Below are positions 13,121 through 25,592 of a DNA stretch of 56,800 nucleotides, piece by piece. The notes beneath the pieces were generated by a model. It was not told the origin of the DNA. It searched no databases and saw only the letters and a program-made list of their open reading frames with translations. Source of the stretch: an archaeon (lineage in GTDB: Archaea > Thermoproteota > Nitrososphaeria > Nitrososphaerales > Gagatemarchaeaceae); assembly GCA_021796515.1 (NCBI GenBank), contig JAKACC010000004.1, positions 1 to 56,800 on the forward strand, written 5' to 3'. The number at the start of each line of letters is the position of its first letter. The first letter of the stretch is position 1. Both the position numbers and the translations under genes were made by a program.

Positions 13121-14665
13121 ATGAGCGCCTACTGGACGACGCTTTCTCACAATGGGGTCAACTTTCCCGACCCCTACCTGCCCGACGACCTGTCGATATC
13201 GGTGAGAGGGAAGGTCGTTCCTCTATCGGCCTTGGCCGAAGAAATGGCATACAACTTCGCCAAGAAGAAGGACACGCCCTATGTCCAGGACCCGGTCTTC
13301 CAGTCCAACTTCGTCTCGGACTTCGTCACGGAGCTTCCAGATTGGTGCAAGGGGGCGAGGTTCAATGACTTCGATTTCACCCTGCTGAACAGGAAGGTGG
13401 ACCGCGAGAAGGCTGCGAAGGAAGCCATGTCCAAGGAGGAGAGGAAGTCCCTGGCCGCTTCGAGGAAGGAAAGACGGGAGTCCCTGAAGGCGAGGTACGG
13501 CAAGGCGGTCCTCGACGGGAAGGAAGTGGACATCGCAAACTGGATGGTGGAGCCTCCAGGACTGTTCATGGGTCGGGGGCAGCACCCTCTCAGGGGAAGG
13601 TGGAAGCCGAGGGTGGGCGCCTCTGACGTCGTGCTCAACCTCGGGGAGTCGGCCCGGGTCCCGCCGGGGGACTGGAAGGAAGTGGTTCACGATCACAACT
13701 CCATGTGGATGGCCAAATGGATCGACAAGCTTACGGACAAGGAAAAGTACGTCTGGCTCCACGAAAGCTCGCCCCTTCAGCAGTCCCGGAGCAAGGCGAA
13801 GTACGACAACGCGAGGAAGGTCGGGACCCACCTCGACAGGATTCGGGGAAAGATGAACAAGGAGCTCGACGCGAAGGACGAAAGGCTGAGGCAGGTCGCA
13901 ACGGTGTGCTATCTGATTGACACCTTCGGAATGAGGGTCGGAGACGAGAAGGACGAAGACGAGGCGGACACGGTCGGGGCGAGCACCCTCAGAGTCGAGC
14001 ACGTCACGCTTGGCGGAGACCTCGCAGAGTTCAACTTCCTTGGGAAGGATTCGGTCCTGTGGCACAAGTCTGAGAAGGTGCCCGCATCCGTGGCACGGAA
14101 CCTCAGGGAGTTCATGTCCGGGAAGAGTCCAGGGGACGAGGTGTTCCACAACGTCAGCTCCGGTATGGTCAACCAGTTCCTTTCATCCATAGTCCCCGGA
14201 GCCACTGCAAAGGTGTTCAGGACGTTCCACGCGACGGCGAAGGCACGGGAGGTCTTGGGCGCGAAAGACATGAGGGAAGCTGACGACCTAGACAAGCTCT
14301 ACCATGCCAAGGAGGCCAACCTGCAGGCCGCAGTGTTCTGCAACCACCAGAGGACCCCTCCGAAGAGCTGGGAGGAGTCTCGTTTGAAGAAGAAGCAGAA
14401 GCTAGAAGAAGCGGTCTCCAGGAACGACGTGAAGAGGATCCCGAAGCTCAGGCGCGAGCTCGAGTTCTACGAGAGGACCAAGAACTACAACCTGAACACT
14501 TCGCTGAAGAACTACATCGACCCAAGGGTGTACAAGGCGTGGTGCGACTACGTGGGGCTCGAGTGGGCCAAGGTGTACAGCAAGTCTCTGCAGAAGAAGT
14601 TTGCATGGGCCGCGAAATCCTCGACGAAGTGGGAGGGTTCCCGACCTGGAGAGCCGGAGCCCTAG
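13121..14665 (+). CDS. top1B: DNA topoisomerase IB (eukaryote-type)
   Basis: A 514-aa type IB topoisomerase that relaxes positive and negative supercoils through a 3'-phosphotyrosine. Catalytic elements align with human TOP1: Arg in GMRVGDEKDEDEADTVGAS, Lys in LGKDSV, Arg in VFRTFHATAKA, His in CNHQR, and the nucleophilic Tyr in SLKNYIDPRVYKAWC near residue 470. A charged coiled-coil linker (KKKQKLEEAVSR) precedes the tyrosine domain. The N-terminal core LSHNGVNFPDPYLPDD also matches. The enzyme is a recognised marker of Thaumarchaeota-related archaea. A TATA box (gattttaaat) sits about 35 nt upstream. The 3' end overlaps the convergent gene by 4 nt. Confidence 0.95.
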   Translation: MSAYWTTLSHNGVNFPDPYLPDDLSISVRGKVVPLSALAEEMAYNFAKKKDTPYVQDPVFQSNFVSDFVTELPDWCKGARFNDFDFTLLNRKVDREKAAKEAMSKEERKSLAASRKERRESLKARYGKAVLDGKEVDIANWMVEPPGLFMGRGQHPLRGRWKPRVGASDVVLNLGESARVPPGDWKEVVHDHNSMWMAKWIDKLTDKEKYVWLHESSPLQQSRSKAKYDNARKVGTHLDRIRGKMNKELDAKDERLRQVATVCYLIDTFGMRVGDEKDEDEADTVGASTLRVEHVTLGGDLAEFNFLGKDSVLWHKSEKVPASVARNLREFMSGKSPGDEVFHNVSSGMVNQFLSSIVPGATAKVFRTFHATAKAREVLGAKDMREADDLDKLYHAKEANLQAAVFCNHQRTPPKSWEESRLKKKQKLEEAVSRNDVKRIPKLRRELEFYERTKNYNLNTSLKNYIDPRVYKAWCDYVGLEWAKVYSKSLQKKFAWAAKSSTKWEGSRPGEPEP

Positions 14666-15669
14666 CCTCTCAGAGGGGGTCTGCGAAATACCCGCCACAG
14701 TTCGTCCTGCGGGGCGTCGGTCATCGCTAGTTTCGAGCCGCCTCTGCCGACGACCAACCTGGCCCCCTCCGCAAAGTTCCCTATGCGCGTGACCCTGCAC
14801 ATCCCGCCGAGCGCTTTCTCCACCCTGATCTCCTCCCCCTTCCTCACGGCCAGAAGGAGCGCCCCAGAGCCTATGAGCTTCAGCGGGTCGATCGACAGAG
14901 CCTCGCATATCTTCGCAGTTTCTGGGAGCACCGGGACCAGCTCTCTTCTGAGCACGAATCCAAGGCCCGAGGCCAGTGACATCTCATAGGCGGCCCCGAG
15001 GACGCCTCCTTCGGTGCAGTCGTGCATCGCGTGGATGCTCCCGGTCGCGAATGCGGCCACGGCCTCCTCGACGACGCTGACCTGGGAGATGAGGCTCCCC
15101 GCCCTCCGCAAGGCGGCCTGCGGGACGCCCCGCAGCAGGTCGGCGCGCTCGGTTGCTATCTCCGACGTCCCTTCCAGCCCGGCGAACTTCGTCATCATCA
15201 TCGTGTCGCCTGCCTTGGCCCCACTCGAAGAAACGTACTTCTTCGCATAGCCGAACGCCGTGACCACGACTATCGTCTTCTTCAGTCCGGGGGTGACCTC
15301 CGTGTGCCCCCCCACGATGGCCATCCTCAGCGACGCCGCAGTTTCGTGCATCTGCTTCCCGATCCCGGCGGCGTCCTCGACCGAAGAGCCCTCTGCCAGA
15401 AGGACGACGGTCTCGGCGAACATCGGCCTGGTCCCGCTGGTGGCCACGTCGTTGGCGCTCACGTGGATGGCGTAGCGTCCGATGTCCTCGGTGGCGCCGG
15501 TTATGGGATCGGCTGACACGAGGAGGAATCCGCCGTCCAGCCTGACTGTGGCGAAATCGAGGCCGGGCTTCGGCCCTTCGACGACCAGGTCCGAATGTGC
15601 GCCTATGCCGGTCAACATCGTCCGCCGCAGGATGTCGATGGGGAGCTTCCCCAGCTGGAGCCGCTTCAA
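14662..15669 (-). CDS. AIR synthase-related (HypE-like) protein
   Basis: A 335-aa protein with the PurM/HypE fold: LVSADPITGATEDIGRYAIHVSANDVATSGTRP (Mg-ATP loop), VGGHTEV, HAMHDCTEGGVLGAAYEMS, and LIGSGALLLAV near the end. It lacks the C-terminal PRxC tail that carries thiocarbamoylated Cys in HypE, and no hydrogenase maturation genes are nearby, so it is probably a HypE-like ATP-dependent enzyme with another substrate. The start is TTG 15669. It is third in the APC permease/amidohydrolase operon. Confidence 0.8.
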   Translation of the reverse strand: MKRLQLGKLPIDILRRTMLTGIGAHSDLVVEGPKPGLDFATVRLDGGFLLVSADPITGATEDIGRYAIHVSANDVATSGTRPMFAETVVLLAEGSSVEDAAGIGKQMHETAASLRMAIVGGHTEVTPGLKKTIVVVTAFGYAKKYVSSSGAKAGDTMMMTKFAGLEGTSEIATERADLLRGVPQAALRRAGSLISQVSVVEEAVAAFATGSIHAMHDCTEGGVLGAAYEMSLASGLGFVLRRELVPVLPETAKICEALSIDPLKLIGSGALLLAVRKGEEIRVEKALGGMCRVTRIGNFAEGARLVVGRGGSKLAMTDAPQDELWRVFRRPPLRG

Positions 15670-15694: not shown

Positions 15695-16408
15695 TCACGA
15701 CAGCAGGCGCTCCGCGTTGTCATGAAGGACCTTGCGTTGGAGGCGGTCGTCGAGCCCAGAGACCCGGACCTTCTGGAGCTCCACGGAGTAGTCGTGGAAA
15801 GGGTAGTCTGAGCCGAAGACGACCCTATCCTCCCCCACGCGCTCGACCGCCTCCCTGATCTTGGAATGCATCGACACCCCCGAAGTCTCTAGCGTTATGT
15901 TGTCGAACTTCTTCGCCGTATCTATGGCCGCCTTGATGTAGACCCCGTGGGCGTGACCCATGTGGAGCATGACTATCCTGGCTCGTGGATACTTCTCCGC
16001 CAACTCCCCTATGCTCCACGGGAGCGAGAACGGAGGATGGCCTGAGTGGATGGCCACCGGGAGGCGCCTTGACGCCATGAACTCCACGATGGGTCCGACC
16101 TCGTCGTCGGTGGGGAGGAACGCATGCAAGAGAGGGTGGAGCTTCACCCCCATGAACCCCCATTCGTCGACCGCCTTCTGGACGAGGTTTAGCGCCCCCG
16201 GATCGTGGGGGTTAGGCCAGACATACCCGACCAGCCTTCCAGGGTGGGAGTCGACGGCCCGCCTGACTAGGTCGTTGTCGAGGCCGAAGACGGCCGCCTT
16301 TTCAACTTCGAACTTGTCCATCTGCTCGAGAAGTTGGTCTGCTGTGGCCGAGACCCCGGCCCAGCTTTCGAACACTCCGATGTGGGCGTGGGCGTCTATC
16401 ACTGCCAC
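15695..16408 (-). CDS. Amidohydrolase (metal-dependent TIM-barrel, amidohydrolase-2 type)
   Basis: A 237-aa hydrolase or decarboxylase-like protein. Metal ligands are visible: HAHIG at the N-terminus, GVKLHP in the middle, AIHSGHPP, LHMGHAHG, and VVFGSDYPFHD at the C-terminus. The substrate is unknown. The start is GTG 16408, 6 nt after the stop of the APC permease. The operon arrangement suggests it acts on something the permease imports. Confidence 0.82.
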   Translation of the reverse strand: MAVIDAHAHIGVFESWAGVSATADQLLEQMDKFEVEKAAVFGLDNDLVRRAVDSHPGRLVGYVWPNPHDPGALNLVQKAVDEWGFMGVKLHPLLHAFLPTDDEVGPIVEFMASRRLPVAIHSGHPPFSLPWSIGELAEKYPRARIVMLHMGHAHGVYIKAAIDTAKKFDNITLETSGVSMHSKIREAVERVGEDRVVFGSDYPFHDYSVELQKVRVSGLDDRLQRKVLHDNAERLLS

Positions 16409-16414
16409 TGGGCA

Positions 16415-17992
16415 TCAGTCCGGTGGGAGCCTAGAGTGGAGCGTGGATAGGTCTATGCCTCTCTTCTTGTTGTACCAGCGCGAGGCCGCGTAGACTACAG
16501 CTGGGACGGCGACAACGACGGCGGTGAAGACCTCGGCAGGGACCGAGAACGGTCCCACCGCGGGGTTCGCTATGCTGTTGTATCCTAGATACGCGAACAG
16601 CGTTGCGGCTGCTACGCCGAGGACGGACAGCAGGGGGACCCCCCTCCTCTGCCCGTAGATGTCTCTCCTGGTCAGGGGGAGAAGGATCGCGCAGATGGCC
16701 GCGAGGAACCAGACGACGCTGTAGAAGAAGATGGAGTTGACCTGGGTGGCTATGAATGAAGTGAAATACTGAAGGTACATCGGGACCACCGCTAGGATCG
16801 CAGCGAAGCCTATGGCCACCGTGGGTGTATGGAACCTGTCGCTGACGCTGGCGAACCGCGCCGGTATCACCCTGTCGAACGACCATGCGAGGAAGAGCCT
16901 GCTGATGAACGCGATCGCCAGCCACGACCACCCTATGTTCCCGACGAAGAGGGCTGCCACCAGGAACCAGAGCAGGTAGGGGTTCCCGTTCAGGACGGTC
17001 GCGAAGGCCGTGGGGACTGTGGCCACTCCCCCGTTCGACACCGTCCATGCTTCAATGAAGGATATGCCTACCCTCGAGTCGATGAGGTAGGTCAGCCCGA
17101 ACCAGATGGCGATCGATACTACTTCAGCGAGGACGAGCCCATAGAGCAGGGACCTCCTGGGCTTCTTCAGTTCGCCTCCTACCAGCTGCATGACCGGGTA
17201 CGGCCCGATGCTCACGAAGAGGAGCGGGACGACTGCGCTGAGGTTGGCGAGGCTGGCTCCGGGGGTGTATCCCTTCGCCTCGGCTTGGGCCATCACCGCG
17301 CTCATCCCTCCGCTGAAGTGACTGGCGTAGGCGCTCGCGAACTGAGAGCTGCTGGTCGTCGTGAAGATCACCAAGACCATGGCCATAGCCACGGCTCCCA
17401 TCCCGAAGAATGCGTAGACTGCGTACTTCAGAACCCTCCCTCCAAGGGCCACGATGACCGTCCCCGCTAGGAGAATCAAGAGCCCCCCCGCCATCAACAG
17501 CTCAGGTGAGTTCGAAGTCCCGGGGTTCATCGTCGTCCCGAGTGAAGCCATCCACTGGTTCCCAAGGGCCTGCCCCGCGAAGGAGAGTTGCGTGCCCGCT
17601 TCTGTGAACGCCCAGTAAGAACCGGACCCTGCAGAGATCAAAAGCGCCACAAAGAAGAGGAAGCTCGCGACGAACCCCACCGGACTCGAGAGTATCCTGG
17701 AGATGAATACGTAGTCCCCTCCCGTCTTCGGCATTATGGAGGTCAGCTGCCAATACAAGACCACTATCACCAGGGCGATTACCCCCCAGACCGCGAGTCC
17801 GGCATAATAGTTCACGTTCTGGTAGTAGTCGGGGGTGACCCAGAAGATCCCCGCCCAGCTGGTGAGCCACGGGAAGAAGACGACCGTCCAGGCGAAGACG
17901 TCCCAGGCTGAGAGCTCCTTCACTATGCCTGTGGCCTCCCTCACGAATGTCTCGGGCAAAGCGCTTGTGGTCGTCCCGCCGGCCGATGACAT
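16415..17992 (-). CDS. APC-superfamily amino acid permease
   Basis: A 525-aa protein with about 12 TM helices. Family features include the N-terminal KELSAWDVFAWTVVFFPW segment, MPKTGGDYVFISRIL (conserved GGDY near TM2/3), VGGELKKPRRSLLYGLVLAE and a TM-rich C-terminus ending in KKRGIDL. It probably imports amino acids or amines; the substrate cannot be read from sequence. It is first in an operon with an amidohydrolase and an AIR-synthase-like gene. Its start is 42 nt from the divergent threonine-synthase/PadR fusion, which may regulate it. Confidence 0.88.
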   Translation of the reverse strand: MSSAGGTTTSALPETFVREATGIVKELSAWDVFAWTVVFFPWLTSWAGIFWVTPDYYQNVNYYAGLAVWGVIALVIVVLYWQLTSIMPKTGGDYVFISRILSSPVGFVASFLFFVALLISAGSGSYWAFTEAGTQLSFAGQALGNQWMASLGTTMNPGTSNSPELLMAGGLLILLAGTVIVALGGRVLKYAVYAFFGMGAVAMAMVLVIFTTTSSSQFASAYASHFSGGMSAVMAQAEAKGYTPGASLANLSAVVPLLFVSIGPYPVMQLVGGELKKPRRSLLYGLVLAEVVSIAIWFGLTYLIDSRVGISFIEAWTVSNGGVATVPTAFATVLNGNPYLLWFLVAALFVGNIGWSWLAIAFISRLFLAWSFDRVIPARFASVSDRFHTPTVAIGFAAILAVVPMYLQYFTSFIATQVNSIFFYSVVWFLAAICAILLPLTRRDIYGQRRGVPLLSVLGVAAATLFAYLGYNSIANPAVGPFSVPAEVFTAVVVAVPAVVYAASRWYNKKRGIDLSTLHSRLPPD

Positions 17993-18030
17993 ATAAGCTG
18001 CAACCTATATATCAGCCCGGCGGCCGATCC
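17978..18030. promoter_or_regulatory. Compact divergent promoter between APC permease and threonine-synthase/PadR fusion
   Basis: Two TATA-like elements, acatataag (17989-17997) and cctatatat (18004-18012), lie about 15 bp apart between the genes. The direct repeat ggccgat occurs at 17981-17987 and 18022-18028, flanking both TATA elements. The second TATA is about 25 nt before GTG 18034. The short shared region suggests the fusion protein could control both itself and the permease. Confidence 0.5.
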
Positions 18031-18033
18031 GTC

Positions 18034-19509
18034 GTGCAGTCGCTGAGGTGCGTGCGCTGCTCGAAACTGACGAAGTCAGAGCGGCTCGACCCTTCCTGCG
18101 AAGGGTGTGGAGGCGCAGTCCTTTTCTCCGGCCAGCCTGCTTCGTTCCCGACGAGGGCGGAGCTTGACGGGTCTCCAGCCGGCGTCTGGAGATACCGCGC
18201 CTTCCTCCCCCCGGTTAGCCTTGGGCAGGTGGTCAGCCTGGGCGAAGGGGGGACCCCGCTCCTCCGCTCTCAGAGGCTGGGCAAGGAGCTGGGGCTTCGT
18301 AACCTCTTGATCAAGGACGAGAGCCGGAACCCGACCGGCTCTTTTATGGACAGGGGCTCAACGGTCCTCCTCAGCCTCGCGAAGGGGAGAGGAGTCAGGG
18401 AATGCGACTGCGTGACCACGGGGAACCTCGGCGCTTCACTCGCGGCATACTGCGCCAAGGCCGGCGTGAGAGCGGTGATCAAGGTGCCTCCGAACGTCGA
18501 CCGCGGGAAGCTCTACCAGATGCTCGCCTACGGGGCCGAACTGGACGCGACTCCCGGGAGAAGGGACGCCGGCCGCCATGGGGAGGCTCTGAGCGTGTCG
18601 GCGAGCAACCCGTTCATCCTTGAGGGCGAAAAGACGACGGGGTTCGAGCTGGCCCAAGAGCTGGGCTGGAAGCTCCCCGACGTCATCGTGGTTCCGGTAG
18701 GGACGGGGGGCCACCTGACCATGATATGGAGGGCGATCCAGGAACTCCGTGCGGCAGGGCTGGCCGAAGGTAGCTGCAGACTGCTGGGTGTCAGGCTTGG
18801 CACCCCCTTCATCGGCCGGAGGGGAAGAGGATCAGGGCCGGGAGACGGGGAAGGCGAGCCCTCCCCAGCCGAGCTAGAGTCAGAGCCTCTCTTCGGGGCG
18901 GAGGCGGCCTCTTCAGTGTCCGAGTCGGGCGGGAGGACGGTGGAGGTTTCTCCAAGGGAGATGATAGAAGCCACGGGGCTGCTGGCGCGGACCGAGGGCA
19001 TATTCGCCGAGCCCTCCGGTTCCTCGGTGGTAGCTGCAATAGAACGGGCCATCGAAGAAGGATTTGTCGGCCCCACTGAGATGGTTGTCTGCGTGATCAC
19101 CGGCGCCGGGCTCAAGGACACGAGGTCGGTGACGAAGCTTGCGAGGGAGGCAAGGAAACCCGAACCCGCCATCCCATTCGGCGGCGCTGGGCCTGCTATG
19201 GGGAGGACCAAGGTCGAGCTCCTCCGCCTGTTACAGGACGGCCCTGGCTACGGCTACGACCTCCGCGCGAAGCTCAGCGCGGACCGGGTTATGTCCACGG
19301 CAAGCGTCTACCAGCATCTAACGGAGCTAGAGGCCGCCGGGATGGTCCGCAGGAGGGGGACCGTTACAGCGAAGGGGAGGGAGAGGGTCTTCTACGAAAT
19401 CACGGGGCGGGGGACGGCCCTGCTCGCACTGGCCGGCCGGCTCGAGGAGCTGGCGGGTCGCGGCGCGAACCCACCGAGTAGGCGTCGCGTCAGAGGCGCG
19501 TTCAGATAA
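18034..19509 (+). CDS. Threonine-synthase-like protein lacking the PLP lysine, fused to a C-terminal PadR-like winged helix
   Basis: A 491-aa protein. Residues 1-30 form a zinc-ribbon-like segment (LRCVRCSK...CEGCG). Residues about 60-385 are a threonine-synthase fold: LGEGGTPL, KDESRNPTGSF, TTGNLGASLAAYCAKAG, EGEKTTGFELAQELGW, PVGTGGHLTMIW, EPSGSSVV, VITGAGLKD. In the family the Schiff-base lysine follows NPTGSF; here the codon is ATG (NPTGSFMDRG), so the catalytic Lys is Met and normal synthase activity is not expected. Residues about 400-491 form a PadR-type winged helix (KVELLRLLQDGPGYGYDLRAKL, ASVYQHLTELEAAGMVRRRG, VFYEITGRG). The start GTG 18034 fits a TATA box 25 nt upstream; the track start at 17947 lies inside the divergent permease. 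Inferred role: ligand-sensing regulator of threonine or permease genes. Confidence 0.85.
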   Translation: MQSLRCVRCSKLTKSERLDPSCEGCGGAVLFSGQPASFPTRAELDGSPAGVWRYRAFLPPVSLGQVVSLGEGGTPLLRSQRLGKELGLRNLLIKDESRNPTGSFMDRGSTVLLSLAKGRGVRECDCVTTGNLGASLAAYCAKAGVRAVIKVPPNVDRGKLYQMLAYGAELDATPGRRDAGRHGEALSVSASNPFILEGEKTTGFELAQELGWKLPDVIVVPVGTGGHLTMIWRAIQELRAAGLAEGSCRLLGVRLGTPFIGRRGRGSGPGDGEGEPSPAELESEPLFGAEAASSVSESGGRTVEVSPREMIEATGLLARTEGIFAEPSGSSVVAAIERAIEEGFVGPTEMVVCVITGAGLKDTRSVTKLAREARKPEPAIPFGGAGPAMGRTKVELLRLLQDGPGYGYDLRAKLSADRVMSTASVYQHLTELEAAGMVRRRGTVTAKGRERVFYEITGRGTALLALAGRLEELAGRGANPPSRRRVRGAFR

Positions 19510-20230
19510 CCGACACCAAGAGGCCGATCAGGTAGAGGAGGATCCCGGCTACAGCTCCGACCAGCGCTGATTCGAGGCCGGAGGCGGGGCGGAAGCTCCT
19601 CGGTACGAAGACCTTCGAGCCGAGCACGAATAGTGCGAAGAGAGAAGCAGCCACCGAGCCCAGAAGGGCGTCGATTCGGGCGACCTGGAGAGTGTACGGG
19701 ACAACGGCCAGGAGCGCAAGCAGGAGAAAAGCCACTCCGGCCGCCGCCGGCCTGGAGAAAACGCCCGTGCGGGCGTCCTCCACGTTCACCCGCAGCTCCC
19801 TCCGGAGCATCTCCTTCAGCCAGAGCTCCTTGTTCCTGACAAGCCTCCTCATTATCACTTCTACCTCGGCATCGCCATATCCGTCCTTCCTCAGGAGGTC
19901 CACCATCTCTCTCCTCTCTTCGTCGGGCTCCGTCTCGATCTCCATCATCTCCCTGTTGATGTCTATCTCCAGAGAGTCCAGCTCGGACCTCCGGGAAAGG
20001 TAGTTGCTGAAGAACATGGAGATAGCGCCTGCCAAGGCGAAGGCCAGGCCGGCCAGGGCTATCGTCCCAAAGGGGACCCCCGCCCCGTTAAGGGCGGCGG
20101 TCATGGCCAACCCTTCGATGGCGCCATCGCTCCCCCCCAGGACGACCCTATCCAAGACTTGACGCGCAGGAATGTGCGGATGCTTCTCTCCCTGTTCTGC
20201 CGACAGACCCAGTCGGGCCGAACGCGGCAC
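19502..20230 (-). CDS. VIT1/CCC1 family iron/manganese transporter
   Basis: A 242-aa membrane protein with the VIT1 signature DRVVLGGSDGAIEGLAMTAAL in TM1, then AISMFFSNYLSRRSELD, a cytoplasmic helical metal-binding segment rich in Glu (REMMEIETEPDEERREM), and three C-terminal TM helices. VIT1 proteins export Fe2+/Mn2+ from the cytoplasm. The start is uncertain (track GTG 20230; a TATA-like tctaaataag lies just upstream). The 3' end overlaps the convergent fusion gene by 8 nt. Confidence 0.85.
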   Translation of the reverse strand: MPRSARLGLSAEQGEKHPHIPARQVLDRVVLGGSDGAIEGLAMTAALNGAGVPFGTIALAGLAFALAGAISMFFSNYLSRRSELDSLEIDINREMMEIETEPDEERREMVDLLRKDGYGDAEVEVIMRRLVRNKELWLKEMLRRELRVNVEDARTGVFSRPAAAGVAFLLLALLAVVPYTLQVARIDALLGSVAASLFALFVLGSKVFVPRSFRPASGLESALVGAVAGILLYLIGLLVSVI

Positions 20231-20353
20231 GGTTCTTATTTAGAAGTTGACCAAAGGAGGGGGAGACGGCCGGGGCGCCTCCGGGCTAGGTTTTCTGCCA
20301 CTGAAATGGGAGCATTTATTAGGAATCCCCATCAGGGGAGAACCAATTCAGTC

Positions 20354-21193
20354 ATGCGTTATCCAAAAGAGATAGAAGTCTGGGAACATGCGCCTGGGAG
20401 GCGACTCGTGGAAGTGGTCGTCAAAATCCGGAACGAGAAGGGGGCGCTCGCGAAGTGCAGCCAGGTCTTGAACGATTCGAACGTCAACATCCTGACGGGG
20501 TTCTTCACAGCGCCCTCCTCCTCAAGGGGGGCGTTTCTGAGCTTCTTTGCTGACGTGACTGACTCGGAAGGGGGGCTCACGGAGCTCAAGAAGACCCTCC
20601 AGGGGCTCGACGTCATAGAATCGGTTGACGGAGTGGCCGCCGAAGGCGGTTTCATGGTTGACAGGCAGCACTTCCCCGTCCAGTGGGCAGGGCGGAAGGC
20701 GGTCGTCATGCGGACAGAGGCCCTCAACGAGATGCTCAACAGGCTCTGGGCCGTCTTCGGAACCGGGGCGGCCACGATCATCGACCAGATGGCGGAGGCC
20801 ATGGGGAGACACTCGGCCAGGGAGGTCGTCGAGGACTTCGGCAAGAGGTTCGCAGTGGACCAGATCGACGAGCTCATAGCGACCTATTCGGCCCTCGGTT
20901 ACGCCGACGTCTCGATTGAGAAGAGCAAGTCCTCGGACTTCCCCATAGTGGTGAACGCAAGGGAACTCTTCGAGTGCGAAGCGAACGCGAAGCTAAAGTT
21001 CCGCAGACGGAGCGGTTTCTTCAGGGCCCACCTCAGGGGTTTCATGTCCGGGATCTTCGGAAAGCCGCTCGAGGTCAGCGAGGTCCAGTGCCTTACGGAA
21101 GGGGACGAAGTCTGCTCGTTCAGGGTCGCCCTTTCCGAGGCGGCCGTCCCCAGCGTCACGAGCAGGTTGGCGGAGCGCGGCGCTCGGGCCTAA
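20354..21193 (+). CDS. ACT domain plus V4R domain protein
   Basis: A 279-aa protein. Residues about 15-90 are an ACT domain (LVEVVVKIRNEKGALAKCSQVL, VNILTGFF), which commonly binds amino acids. The C-terminal about 100 residues form a V4R (4-vinyl-reductase) domain with FECEANAKLK and VSEVQCLTEGDEVCSFRV, whose conserved Cys may bind metal. V4R domains bind small hydrophobic ligands. No DNA-binding domain is visible. The track start (20159) lies inside the divergent VIT1 gene; ATG 20354 follows a TATA-like catttattag by about 38 nt. Confidence 0.82.
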   Translation: MRYPKEIEVWEHAPGRRLVEVVVKIRNEKGALAKCSQVLNDSNVNILTGFFTAPSSSRGAFLSFFADVTDSEGGLTELKKTLQGLDVIESVDGVAAEGGFMVDRQHFPVQWAGRKAVVMRTEALNEMLNRLWAVFGTGAATIIDQMAEAMGRHSAREVVEDFGKRFAVDQIDELIATYSALGYADVSIEKSKSSDFPIVVNARELFECEANAKLKFRRRSGFFRAHLRGFMSGIFGKPLEVSEVQCLTEGDEVCSFRVALSEAAVPSVTSRLAERGARA

Positions 21194-23360: not shown

Positions 23361-25592
23361 ATGACCCTCCCTCGCTCGGTCTTCCGGGACGAATCGACAC
23401 TCCTTCAGGAGTATCTCCCTCACCAGATCCCCCACCGCGAAGCGCAGCTCAAGAAGCTAGAGCTCTACTTCCAGGGCGTGGCGCAGAACGCCTCGAAGGC
23501 GAGCCAGACGGTGATGATAACGGGCCCGGTGGGGTGCCACAGAAAGGGGCAACTCGTTCTGACGTTCGACGGTCCAACGAAACGCGTCGAAGACGTGGTC
23601 CAAGGAGATCTGCTGATGGGTCCAGACAGCACACCAAGAAGAGTGCTTGAGACAGTACATGGCTTTGGAAAAATGGTCGAAGTCCAACCCTTCAAGGGGA
23701 AGCCGTTCGTCGTCTCCGAAGACCACATCCTTACTGTCATACAGGCTCGACCGAGGGACGCTCCGCGAAAGACATCGGACGGCACAGAAGGGATTGTCAA
23801 AGACGTCCGGGTAAGCGAGCTACTGAATCTCCAAAAGCTGCCCGTTGGTCCCAAGCCGTTGTACATGCTAGTCAGGACCGGGGTCGATTTCCCGCAGATA
23901 CCAGAAGGGCCTATCGATCCGCACTTCCTCGGCATATGCCTTGGAGGCGGCGGGGGTACTCATGGCAGCACAGCCCTCGCTTCGGCGGACACGGAAATGG
24001 CAGCAATCGTAAAGGACCGGTCTGAAAAATACGCGTCTAAAGTGCGCCAGTACCCTGCAGACCAAGCTCAACAACGCATGCTAACAGTGGGGATGACAGG
24101 CGGCCAAACGCTGCTGGATGGTCTGGCCAATGACCTGATGGCGCTAAATCTCTACAAGGTTACAGCTGGATCGAAGTTCATCCCGTTCCAGTACAAGTTC
24201 GGCTCGAGAAAGACGCGCTTCGAAGTTCTGGCCGGACTGCTCGACGCAGATGGCAGCCTGGAGGCAGGGCGCTTCAACTACACAACGGAATCGAGGCAGC
24301 TGGCTGAGGACGCGGCATTTGTAGCTAGGAGCCTAGGGTTCTATGTCTTCGTCAGGGCGAAGTCTTCTCACGACCAGTCTTGTCAAGGGCTGCAGTACGG
24401 GGTTGGGATCTCGGGGGACCTCTCCAAGATTCCCACGAGGGTCAAGCAAAAACAGGCGCCGCTGCGGAAGCAGAAGAGCGTCCTAAGGACCGGTTTCACG
24501 CTGAAACCCCTAGGGGAAGAAGAGTACTTCGGCTTCCGGGTCGACGGAGACGGGCGATATCTCTTGGAAGACTTCACCGTAACGCACAACTCGGGAAAGA
24601 CCATGCTGGCGAAGAAGCTCCTCCTCGAGTCGCTGCCGAGGAAGGCTTCCCTCTACGGGAACCTCGTAAAGGTCGTGCACGTCAACTGCAGGATAGACAG
24701 GACCATCCAGGCCATAATGGTGAAGGCCCTGAAGTCGCTCGGTCATAACTATCCGACCCGTGGGTACAGCTTCGAGGAGCTGCTGACCGCCTTGGTCGAG
24801 GAGCTCAGGACGAACAGGATGCACCTCGTCATCGCCTTCGACGAGGTCGACTCCCTGGTCCTCTCCGACCCGTCTTCCTTGTATATCATCACACGCCTAA
24901 GAGAGATGGCGCCCGGGAGCCAGGTGCTGTCGTCCGTCCTGATATCCAAGACGACTGACTACCTCAAGAAGGTGGACCTGAGCACGCTCAGCTCGCTCCA
25001 GTGGAACGAGATTGCGCTCGACGGCTACCCGTCGGAGCAGCTAGCAGACATACTCGCCTCCCGGGCCGAAGCGTTCAACGACGGCTGCTTTGATGACGAC
25101 ATGATTCAGCTGGCCGCCGATATTGCGGGGACGTACGGCGACGCTCGCTACGCCCTGGACCTGATCTGGAGGGCGGGGAAGCTGGCGGACGACTCGGGGT
25201 CGCCGCGGGTCCTCCCAGAGCACATAAGGTCTGCCAAGGCCTCACTCCCGCCTCAGCTCAGGAAGGAGGAGCTGGCCTACCTGACCATGCACCAGAAGCT
25301 GCTACTGCTGGCGGCATCCGCCCTCCTGAAAAAGGGGGGCTCGGCCTACGTCACCATCGGGGAAGTGGAGAAGAGTTACTCCGCCCTCTGCGAAGACATG
25401 AAGCTCGCCGCATACCACCACACACAGGTGTGGAGCGACATCAGCGAGCTCTCGAGGAAGGGGATTATAGAGACCCAGCTCTCCGGCAAGGGGGTTCGGG
25501 GGAGGACTACGATGATAGGGCTCTCCCTCGTATCGGCGAAGGAGCTGATGGCCGAGCTCGAAAAGGGGATGCTCACAGACGTTAGAGCTTGA
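23361..25592 (+). CDS. orc1/cdc6: Replication initiator Orc1/Cdc6, interrupted by an intein in the P-loop
   Basis: The precursor is 743 aa; after removal of the 352-residue intein the host is about 391 aa, normal for archaeal Orc1/Cdc6. Extein features: N-terminal VFRDESTLLQEYLPHQIPHRE, Walker A GPVG|SGKT split exactly by the intein, Walker B VIAFDEVDSLV, sensor-type LSTLSSLQWNEIALDGY, and a C-terminal winged helix (LLLAASALLKKGGSAYVTIGEVEKSY). It binds origins and loads MCM. A TATA-like ggttataaaag is about 33 nt upstream. A small winged-helix gene follows after 7 nt. Activity requires splicing, because the ATP site is split. Confidence 0.93.
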   Translation: MTLPRSVFRDESTLLQEYLPHQIPHREAQLKKLELYFQGVAQNASKASQTVMITGPVGCHRKGQLVLTFDGPTKRVEDVVQGDLLMGPDSTPRRVLETVHGFGKMVEVQPFKGKPFVVSEDHILTVIQARPRDAPRKTSDGTEGIVKDVRVSELLNLQKLPVGPKPLYMLVRTGVDFPQIPEGPIDPHFLGICLGGGGGTHGSTALASADTEMAAIVKDRSEKYASKVRQYPADQAQQRMLTVGMTGGQTLLDGLANDLMALNLYKVTAGSKFIPFQYKFGSRKTRFEVLAGLLDADGSLEAGRFNYTTESRQLAEDAAFVARSLGFYVFVRAKSSHDQSCQGLQYGVGISGDLSKIPTRVKQKQAPLRKQKSVLRTGFTLKPLGEEEYFGFRVDGDGRYLLEDFTVTHNSGKTMLAKKLLLESLPRKASLYGNLVKVVHVNCRIDRTIQAIMVKALKSLGHNYPTRGYSFEELLTALVEELRTNRMHLVIAFDEVDSLVLSDPSSLYIITRLREMAPGSQVLSSVLISKTTDYLKKVDLSTLSSLQWNEIALDGYPSEQLADILASRAEAFNDGCFDDDMIQLAADIAGTYGDARYALDLIWRAGKLADDSGSPRVLPEHIRSAKASLPPQLRKEELAYLTMHQKLLLLAASALLKKGGSAYVTIGEVEKSYSALCEDMKLAAYHHTQVWSDISELSRKGIIETQLSGKGVRGRTTMIGLSLVSAKELMAELEKGMLTDVRA
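23535..24590 (+). mobile_element. Intein (352 aa) inserted in the Walker A motif of Orc1/Cdc6
   Basis: It begins at Cys59 (TGC, CHRKGQLVLTFDG) and ends VTHN before Ser+1 of SGKT. Splicing blocks are visible: block A at the start, block B as VVSEDHILTV, block F as YFGFRVDGDGRYLLEDF, block G VTHN. An internal LAGLIDADG endonuclease is indicated by EVLAGLLDADGSLEAGRF. The first endonuclease motif is degenerate (FLGICLGGGGGTHG), lacking the usual acidic residue, so DNA cutting may be weak or lost. The codon use looks less GC-rich than the surrounding extein, consistent with later acquisition. Confidence 0.93.

Follow-up and report, generated by a model that had tools for sequence, protein, structure and literature searches.

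A threonine synthase-like protein without its PLP lysine, fused to a PadR domain, as a candidate regulator of vitamin B6 supply in archaea

Introduction

The closest described counterparts of the protein analyzed here are bacterial: MocR proteins, in which an N-terminal GntR domain is joined to a fold-type-I aminotransferase domain, have been reported to be absent from Archaea, and PdxR regulons hold pdxST, pdxK and pdxU, with gene pairs that are divergent and autoregulated (PMC5320631). The fusion protein encoded in the window (the whole 56,800-nucleotide stretch of archaeal DNA that was analyzed) would likewise be a one-component regulator made of a PLP-enzyme fold and a winged helix, and its family is linked to genes of PLP biosynthesis and salvage (pdxST and PF07155), a resemblance of function only. 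Unlike MocR proteins, it is archaeal, has a C-terminal PadR domain and a fold-type-II threonine synthase (ThrC) domain without the lysine, and is preceded by a predicted operator that lies over TATA boxes. The original prediction, made from the window's letters, had called it analogous to MocR regulators yet unrelated to them; this description is apt, since the fold is another one and the winged helix is a C-terminal PadR rather than an N-terminal GntR domain.

Threonine synthases (TIGR00260; structures 2zsj, 1uim and 6cgq) share with the fusion protein the fold, the N-terminal cysteine ribbon and most PLP-pocket residues, but the fusion protein has lost the catalytic lysine and a substrate arginine, has an extra DNA-binding domain and is linked to B6 genes. 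The NCBIfam model NF004170 (PRK05638) describes the same ThrC plus winged-helix architecture, although the window protein, a member of the clade called A below, scores under its cutoff. The PadR family (PF03551; for example, structure 5dym) has the same type of winged helix with a C-terminal helix; unlike the fusion, PadR proteins are not known to have an enzyme-derived sensor domain, and their classical operators follow the pattern ATGT-N8-ACAT. In the CysK-CymR system of Bacillus a fold-type-II PLP enzyme also takes part in transcription control, but there the two are separate proteins and CysK is still an active enzyme.

The fusion gene and its protein

The gene and its recognizable parts lie in the window as follows:

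18034..19509, + strand: pseudo-threonine-synthase/PadR fusion gene (open reading frame and translation), a predicted PLP-responsive repressor
18049..18108, + strand: N-terminal four-cysteine, zinc-ribbon-like segment (C6, C9, C22 and C25; cysteine columns)
18232..19104, + strand: putative PALP sensor domain, fold type II, threonine-synthase-like (Pfam PF00291)
18346..18348, + strand: ATG codon of Met105, at the position of the PLP Schiff-base lysine (alignments)
19219..19425, + strand: DNA-binding winged helix of PadR type, then a long C-terminal helix (Pfam PF03551)

The open reading frame starts with GTG and encodes 491 amino acids. Pfam finds both of the domains from which the architecture had been predicted, a ThrC-like PALP domain (PF00291) at residues 67–357 with 200 bits and a C-terminal PadR winged helix (PF03551) at residues 396–464 with 46.8 bits against a cutoff of 27; it finds no GntR match in the protein. 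The family profile also matches the PadR structure 5dym, and the four cysteine columns of the zinc-ribbon-like segment are nearly invariant in two family alignments (A1 and A2). In the AF2 model (mean pLDDT 86.9) both domains are confident, the loop 258–282 is poorly modeled and the C-terminal helix comprises residues 458–476. The best structural matches of this model are threonine synthases, the top Foldseek match being 2zsj (target TM-score 0.80, E 3e-26), in agreement with the predicted fold.

Loss of the catalytic lysine and the PLP pocket

Alignment by phmmer to the solved threonine synthases 2zsj, 2d1f and 6cgq places Met105 (ATG, 18346–18348) on the PLP lysine of the NPTGSFK motif, exactly the replacement of this invariant lysine that had been proposed. 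The ATG codon is also present in identical and 94%-identical genomes, and in other relatives this codon specifies Ile, Leu, Val or Thr. Comparison of the window gene with that of the 94% relative gives a dN of 0.029 and a dS of 0.216, which shows purifying selection and a maintained protein; the two rates and the agreement of the near-identical genomes rule out both a pseudogene and a sequencing error in an AAG codon. Relocation of the catalytic lysine is ruled out as well, since all other conserved lysines of the ThrC domain also occur in active ThrC, and the family alignment of this domain contains no new conserved lysine in place of the lost one.

The loss is not an oddity of a single genome, as fused relatives occur in related genomes, in the phylum and in a named genome collection. 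These sources yielded 160 distinct alignable ThrC-like sequences, 109 of them fused and 51 unfused; the lysine is absent from 108 of the 109 and is kept in all 51 of the unfused proteins. In clade A (n = 81), which includes the window protein, no member has it (0/81), and the position is occupied by Leu, Ile, Met, Thr, Val, Ala or Asn. The fused proteins of clade B (n = 28) have Arg in 27 cases and Lys in one (L224), so the supposition that fused homologs do not keep the lysine holds for the window's own clade but has one exception in the other.

The rest of the PLP pocket is largely preserved in clade A. Of its proteins, 98% keep the Asn of the GN motif and 100% keep the Gly-rich phosphate loop and the Thr of the TG motif (T-G-x-G-L-K), and the lysines at positions 94, 159, 200 and 361 of the window protein are also retained; in threonine synthase these residues presumably cradle PLP. 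In 65% of clade A, His replaces the phosphate-loop Asn; a different affinity for PLP is therefore possible, which counts against a role in B6 regulation. The arginine after NP(Y/F), which presumably holds the substrate in threonine synthase, is present in 86% of unfused ThrC (NP(Y/F)R-x-EGQKT) and is gone in both fused clades, being Ile in the window protein and mostly Phe, Leu, Ile or Val in clade A. Retention of the pocket together with loss of the lysine and the arginine is consistent with a non-enzymatic holder of PLP, and fits a clade A protein that could bind PLP but would neither form an internal aldimine nor take up phosphohomoserine.

Distribution and naming of the family

Clade A records carry the names (MAG labels) Thaumarchaeota/Nitrososphaerales, Bathyarchaeota, Thorarchaeota, Lokiarchaeota and Brockarchaeota, as well as Terraquivivens, Thermoprotei, Methanosuratincola and Thermoplasmata. 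One fused record (L055) bears the label "bacterium", but its contig is identical to that of G016, which belongs to the same genus as the window; apart from it, no bacterial locus that was fetched is fused. The family tree is unrooted and thus compatible with one fusion event as well as with two.

NF004170, which is named "threonine synthase", spans both ThrC and the winged helix; a fusion protein with Arg for Lys (L297) scores 695 bits to it, and the window protein scores 235.8 bits, below the curated cutoff of 421. Since the model includes a fusion with Arg, the fusion is already present in databases under an enzyme name, one that looks wrong for both fused clades. The literature searched (openly licensed papers only) describes neither a ThrC-PadR regulator nor a regulator of B6 in archaea; thus, the earlier statement that no regulator of this architecture had been described stands for the regulator, but not for the architecture itself, which NCBIfam already holds.

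Genes adjacent to the fusions

A vitamin B6 gene, either a PF07155 ECF S-component or pdxS-pdxT, adjoins the fusion at 50 of the 75 clade A loci in which at least 1 kb of upstream sequence is visible (divergent S-component at 44, divergent pdxS-pdxT at 5 and a downstream S-component at 1). PdxU and PdxU2/HmpT are members of PF07155/COG4720 (PMC9997740), and HmpT carries pyridoxamine (PMC4860826). No S-component or pdxS gene lies near unfused ThrC in 37 control loci (422 kb), a control of limited weight since these loci are mostly bacterial. The 25 clade A loci without an adjacent B6 gene, among them that of the window with its permease, count against the B6-regulator reading. In clade B an S-component gene lies directly downstream on the same strand at 18 of 26 loci (L197, L203–L205, L207–L209, L211–L216 and L218–L222), and a real thrC gene is divergent at five, where a second input is conceivable; clade B would be a second regulator group with an operator of a different kind.

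Some other neighbors recur. Nine clade A loci have a divergent glycosyl hydrolase 18 (L089, L091, L093 and L094), nucleoside hydrolase (L017, L061 and L062) or EamA transporter gene (L065 and L079); the operator described below is present in most of them, and these neighbors are possibly further B6-related genes. An AIR-synthase-related protein (HypE/ThiL-like), encoded in the window at 14662–15669 (− strand), has homologs that often adjoin the S-component in both clades.

A conserved inverted repeat as the predicted operator

The clade A upstream regions have in common an inverted repeat, ATATATAAG-N6-CCTATATATAGG, which in the window is found between the fusion gene and its divergent neighbor:

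17991..18015, no strand: predicted operator ATATAAGCTGCAACCTATATATCAG (family motif; sole match in the window's genome)

Its core is at 17992–18012, and the site is the only match in the genome both with the exact core and with a longer pattern at up to two mismatches. The two half-sites resemble the TATA boxes of two divergent genes, one facing each, and each lies about 25 bases from a start codon. The strict expression is present in 46 of 78 clade A upstream regions, in none of the 28 clade B regions and in none of 50 shuffles, and with a leave-one-out matrix 67 of the 78 clade A regions exceed the 99% shuffle level.

Among 30 genomes the exact core has 21 matches, 18 at the fusion and three at unlinked pdxS promoters, just upstream of the gene (G002, G039 and G042); the reversed pattern has no match in the same genomes. 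A search at two mismatches adds a site before an S-component gene of G240 that is not linked to the fusion. A 300-genome sample of the phylum gave 27 matches, 22 of them at fusions; the other five are probably chance, and equally many came from the reversed control. Another site with two mismatches (G252:C6, L273) was judged to be chance and was rejected as an operator. Seven genomes that have pdxS but for which the searches made found no fused homolog have no operator site. Simple conservation of TATA boxes is unlikely to explain the motif, given the absence of matches to the reversed pattern in the 30 genomes and of matches in the shuffles; ordinary archaeal promoters may account for part of the likeness of the half-sites to TATA boxes, but the same two controls argue against this alone. 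The sites predict a regulon that would include the fusion gene itself and the unlinked pdxS and S-component promoters.

The divergent permease of the window

On the other side of the predicted operator lie two genes of a different kind:

16415..17992, − strand: AA_permease_2 transporter, divergent from the fusion gene (Pfam PF13520), candidate B6-vitamer importer
15695..16408, − strand: Amidohydro_2 protein, directly downstream of the permease gene (Pfam PF04909)

The true start of the permease is probably the TTG at 17959, and the two genes probably form one transcription unit; the pair also occurs in another family of the order (L308). At this same locus other genomes of the genus have a divergent S-component (G001, G005 and G016) or pdxST (G012). 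Neither pdxS nor a PF07155 protein was found in the window genome (95.6% complete) or in G015 (100% complete), whose fusion protein is 94% identical to that of the window. This absence, and the location of the permease where relatives have an ECF S-component or pdxST, make it a candidate B6-vitamer importer that would be under the same operator as the fusion. Close homologs of the permease (59% identity or more) are found only in G000 (the window genome), G015, G018, G007 and G044 among 37 genomes searched, and none of these five has a pdxS match, G018 and G007 being incomplete; G018 retains the permease, a fragment of the fusion and the exact operator. In L039 (5700–7787), from the same taxonomic family as the window, an S-component gene separates the N-terminal remnant of a window-type permease from the C-terminal one. 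Remnants of both permease and amidohydrolase flank the ECF S-component there, which has the appearance of a gene replacement caught in progress.

Against B6 import stands the pairing of the permease with an amidohydrolase, in the window and in G044; no operator was found in the latter. In addition, no PF08543 pyridoxal kinase scores above cutoff in the window genome or G015, so the route from an imported vitamer to PLP is questionable.

Several other features of the window were noted. A V4R-domain protein (20159–21193, + strand) and a VIT1-family transporter (19502–20230, − strand) are encoded beside the fusion locus, and a eukaryote-type DNA topoisomerase IB (13121–14665, + strand) has conserved synteny with it in the genus. 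The Cdc6/Orc1 replication protein (23361–25592, + strand) carries an intein (Hint and LAGLIDADG) inserted at the Walker A loop.

Proposed mechanism and alternative readings

Quite likely the fusion is a PLP-sensing repressor, a one-component regulator through which these archaea control the transcription of genes for vitamin B6 supply. That an enzyme fold has been turned into a ligand-sensing regulator, as originally predicted, agrees with the correlation between fusion and lysine loss, the divergent gene pairs and the putative operator. The three ligands suggested then were threonine, phosphohomoserine and PLP; the linked B6-transporter S-components and pdxST favor PLP, and the first two are unsupported in clade A, which has lost the substrate arginine and has no linked threonine gene.

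From what can be read directly in the sequences (the lysine loss, the fusion, the gene linkage, and the conserved motif, including its copies at unlinked pdxS and S-component promoters), the following scheme may be drawn. The starting point would have been a threonine synthase that was joined to a PadR winged helix and in which the catalytic lysine and the substrate arginine disappeared while the PLP cradle stayed. When PLP is plentiful the protein would bind it non-covalently, and a dimer of the holo-protein would sit on ATATATAAG-N6-CCTATATATAGG, where it would cover both TATA boxes and keep its own gene as well as the divergent B6 gene switched off. When PLP is low it would be released, and the importer (an ECF S-component or, in the window, probably the permease at 16415–17992) or pdxST would be expressed. 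The inverted repeat is consistent with dimeric DNA binding, and the sign of regulation, with PLP as putative co-repressor, is inferred from the operator position and feedback logic. Bacterial PdxR activates pdxST in its apo form (PMC5320631), and the opposite sign must therefore be kept in view for the fusion.

An unlikely alternative is that the protein senses threonine or phosphohomoserine and governs the transport or synthesis of amino acids, the divergent permease being an amino-acid importer. The ThrC ancestry, the AA_permease_2 identity of the divergent window gene and the real thrC beside five clade B loci are all in its favor, but the clade A neighbors and genome-wide operator sites are B6 genes, the substrate arginine is missing in both clades, and a relative has an ECF S-component gene inside the permease remnants. 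It is less probable still that the regulated vitamin is another one, riboflavin or hydroxymethylpyrimidine/thiamine: although PF07155 bears the Pfam name "riboflavin transporter, S component" and hydroxymethylpyrimidine was the first substrate assigned to HmpT (PMC4860826), the operator also stands before PLP-specific pdxS and pdxT, whether or not they are linked to the fusion, PdxU and HmpT belong to PF07155, and the sensor fold is a PLP fold. Least probable is an active or altered enzyme whose winged helix serves protein contacts, with no regulatory role; nearly all remaining ThrC landmarks are conserved and the NCBIfam name is "threonine synthase", but the Schiff-base lysine and substrate arginine are missing throughout clade A, the same genome encodes a second ThrC-like protein with an intact lysine (PTGTFKARG), and an operator is conserved at the promoter.

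The PLP-sensing repressor thus remains the preferred reading. A broader proposal, in which such repressors are widespread in archaea and convergent with PdxR and the window permease represents a new class of B6-vitamer importer, replaced by ECF S-components or pdxST in relatives, is possible and is put forward tentatively.

Biological meaning

The fusion family is a candidate archaeal B6 regulator, present in many lineages, for which operator and target genes are defined. In this family a PLP enzyme may have become a PLP sensor for a second time and independently, here without the covalent lysine. The importers of vitamin B6 in prokaryotes are an open question (PMC9997740), and since the operator marks candidate transporter genes, it turns that question into a testable case. 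The fusions that go by the name "threonine synthase" are probably non-enzymes, which affects the reconstruction of amino-acid pathways in archaeal MAGs.
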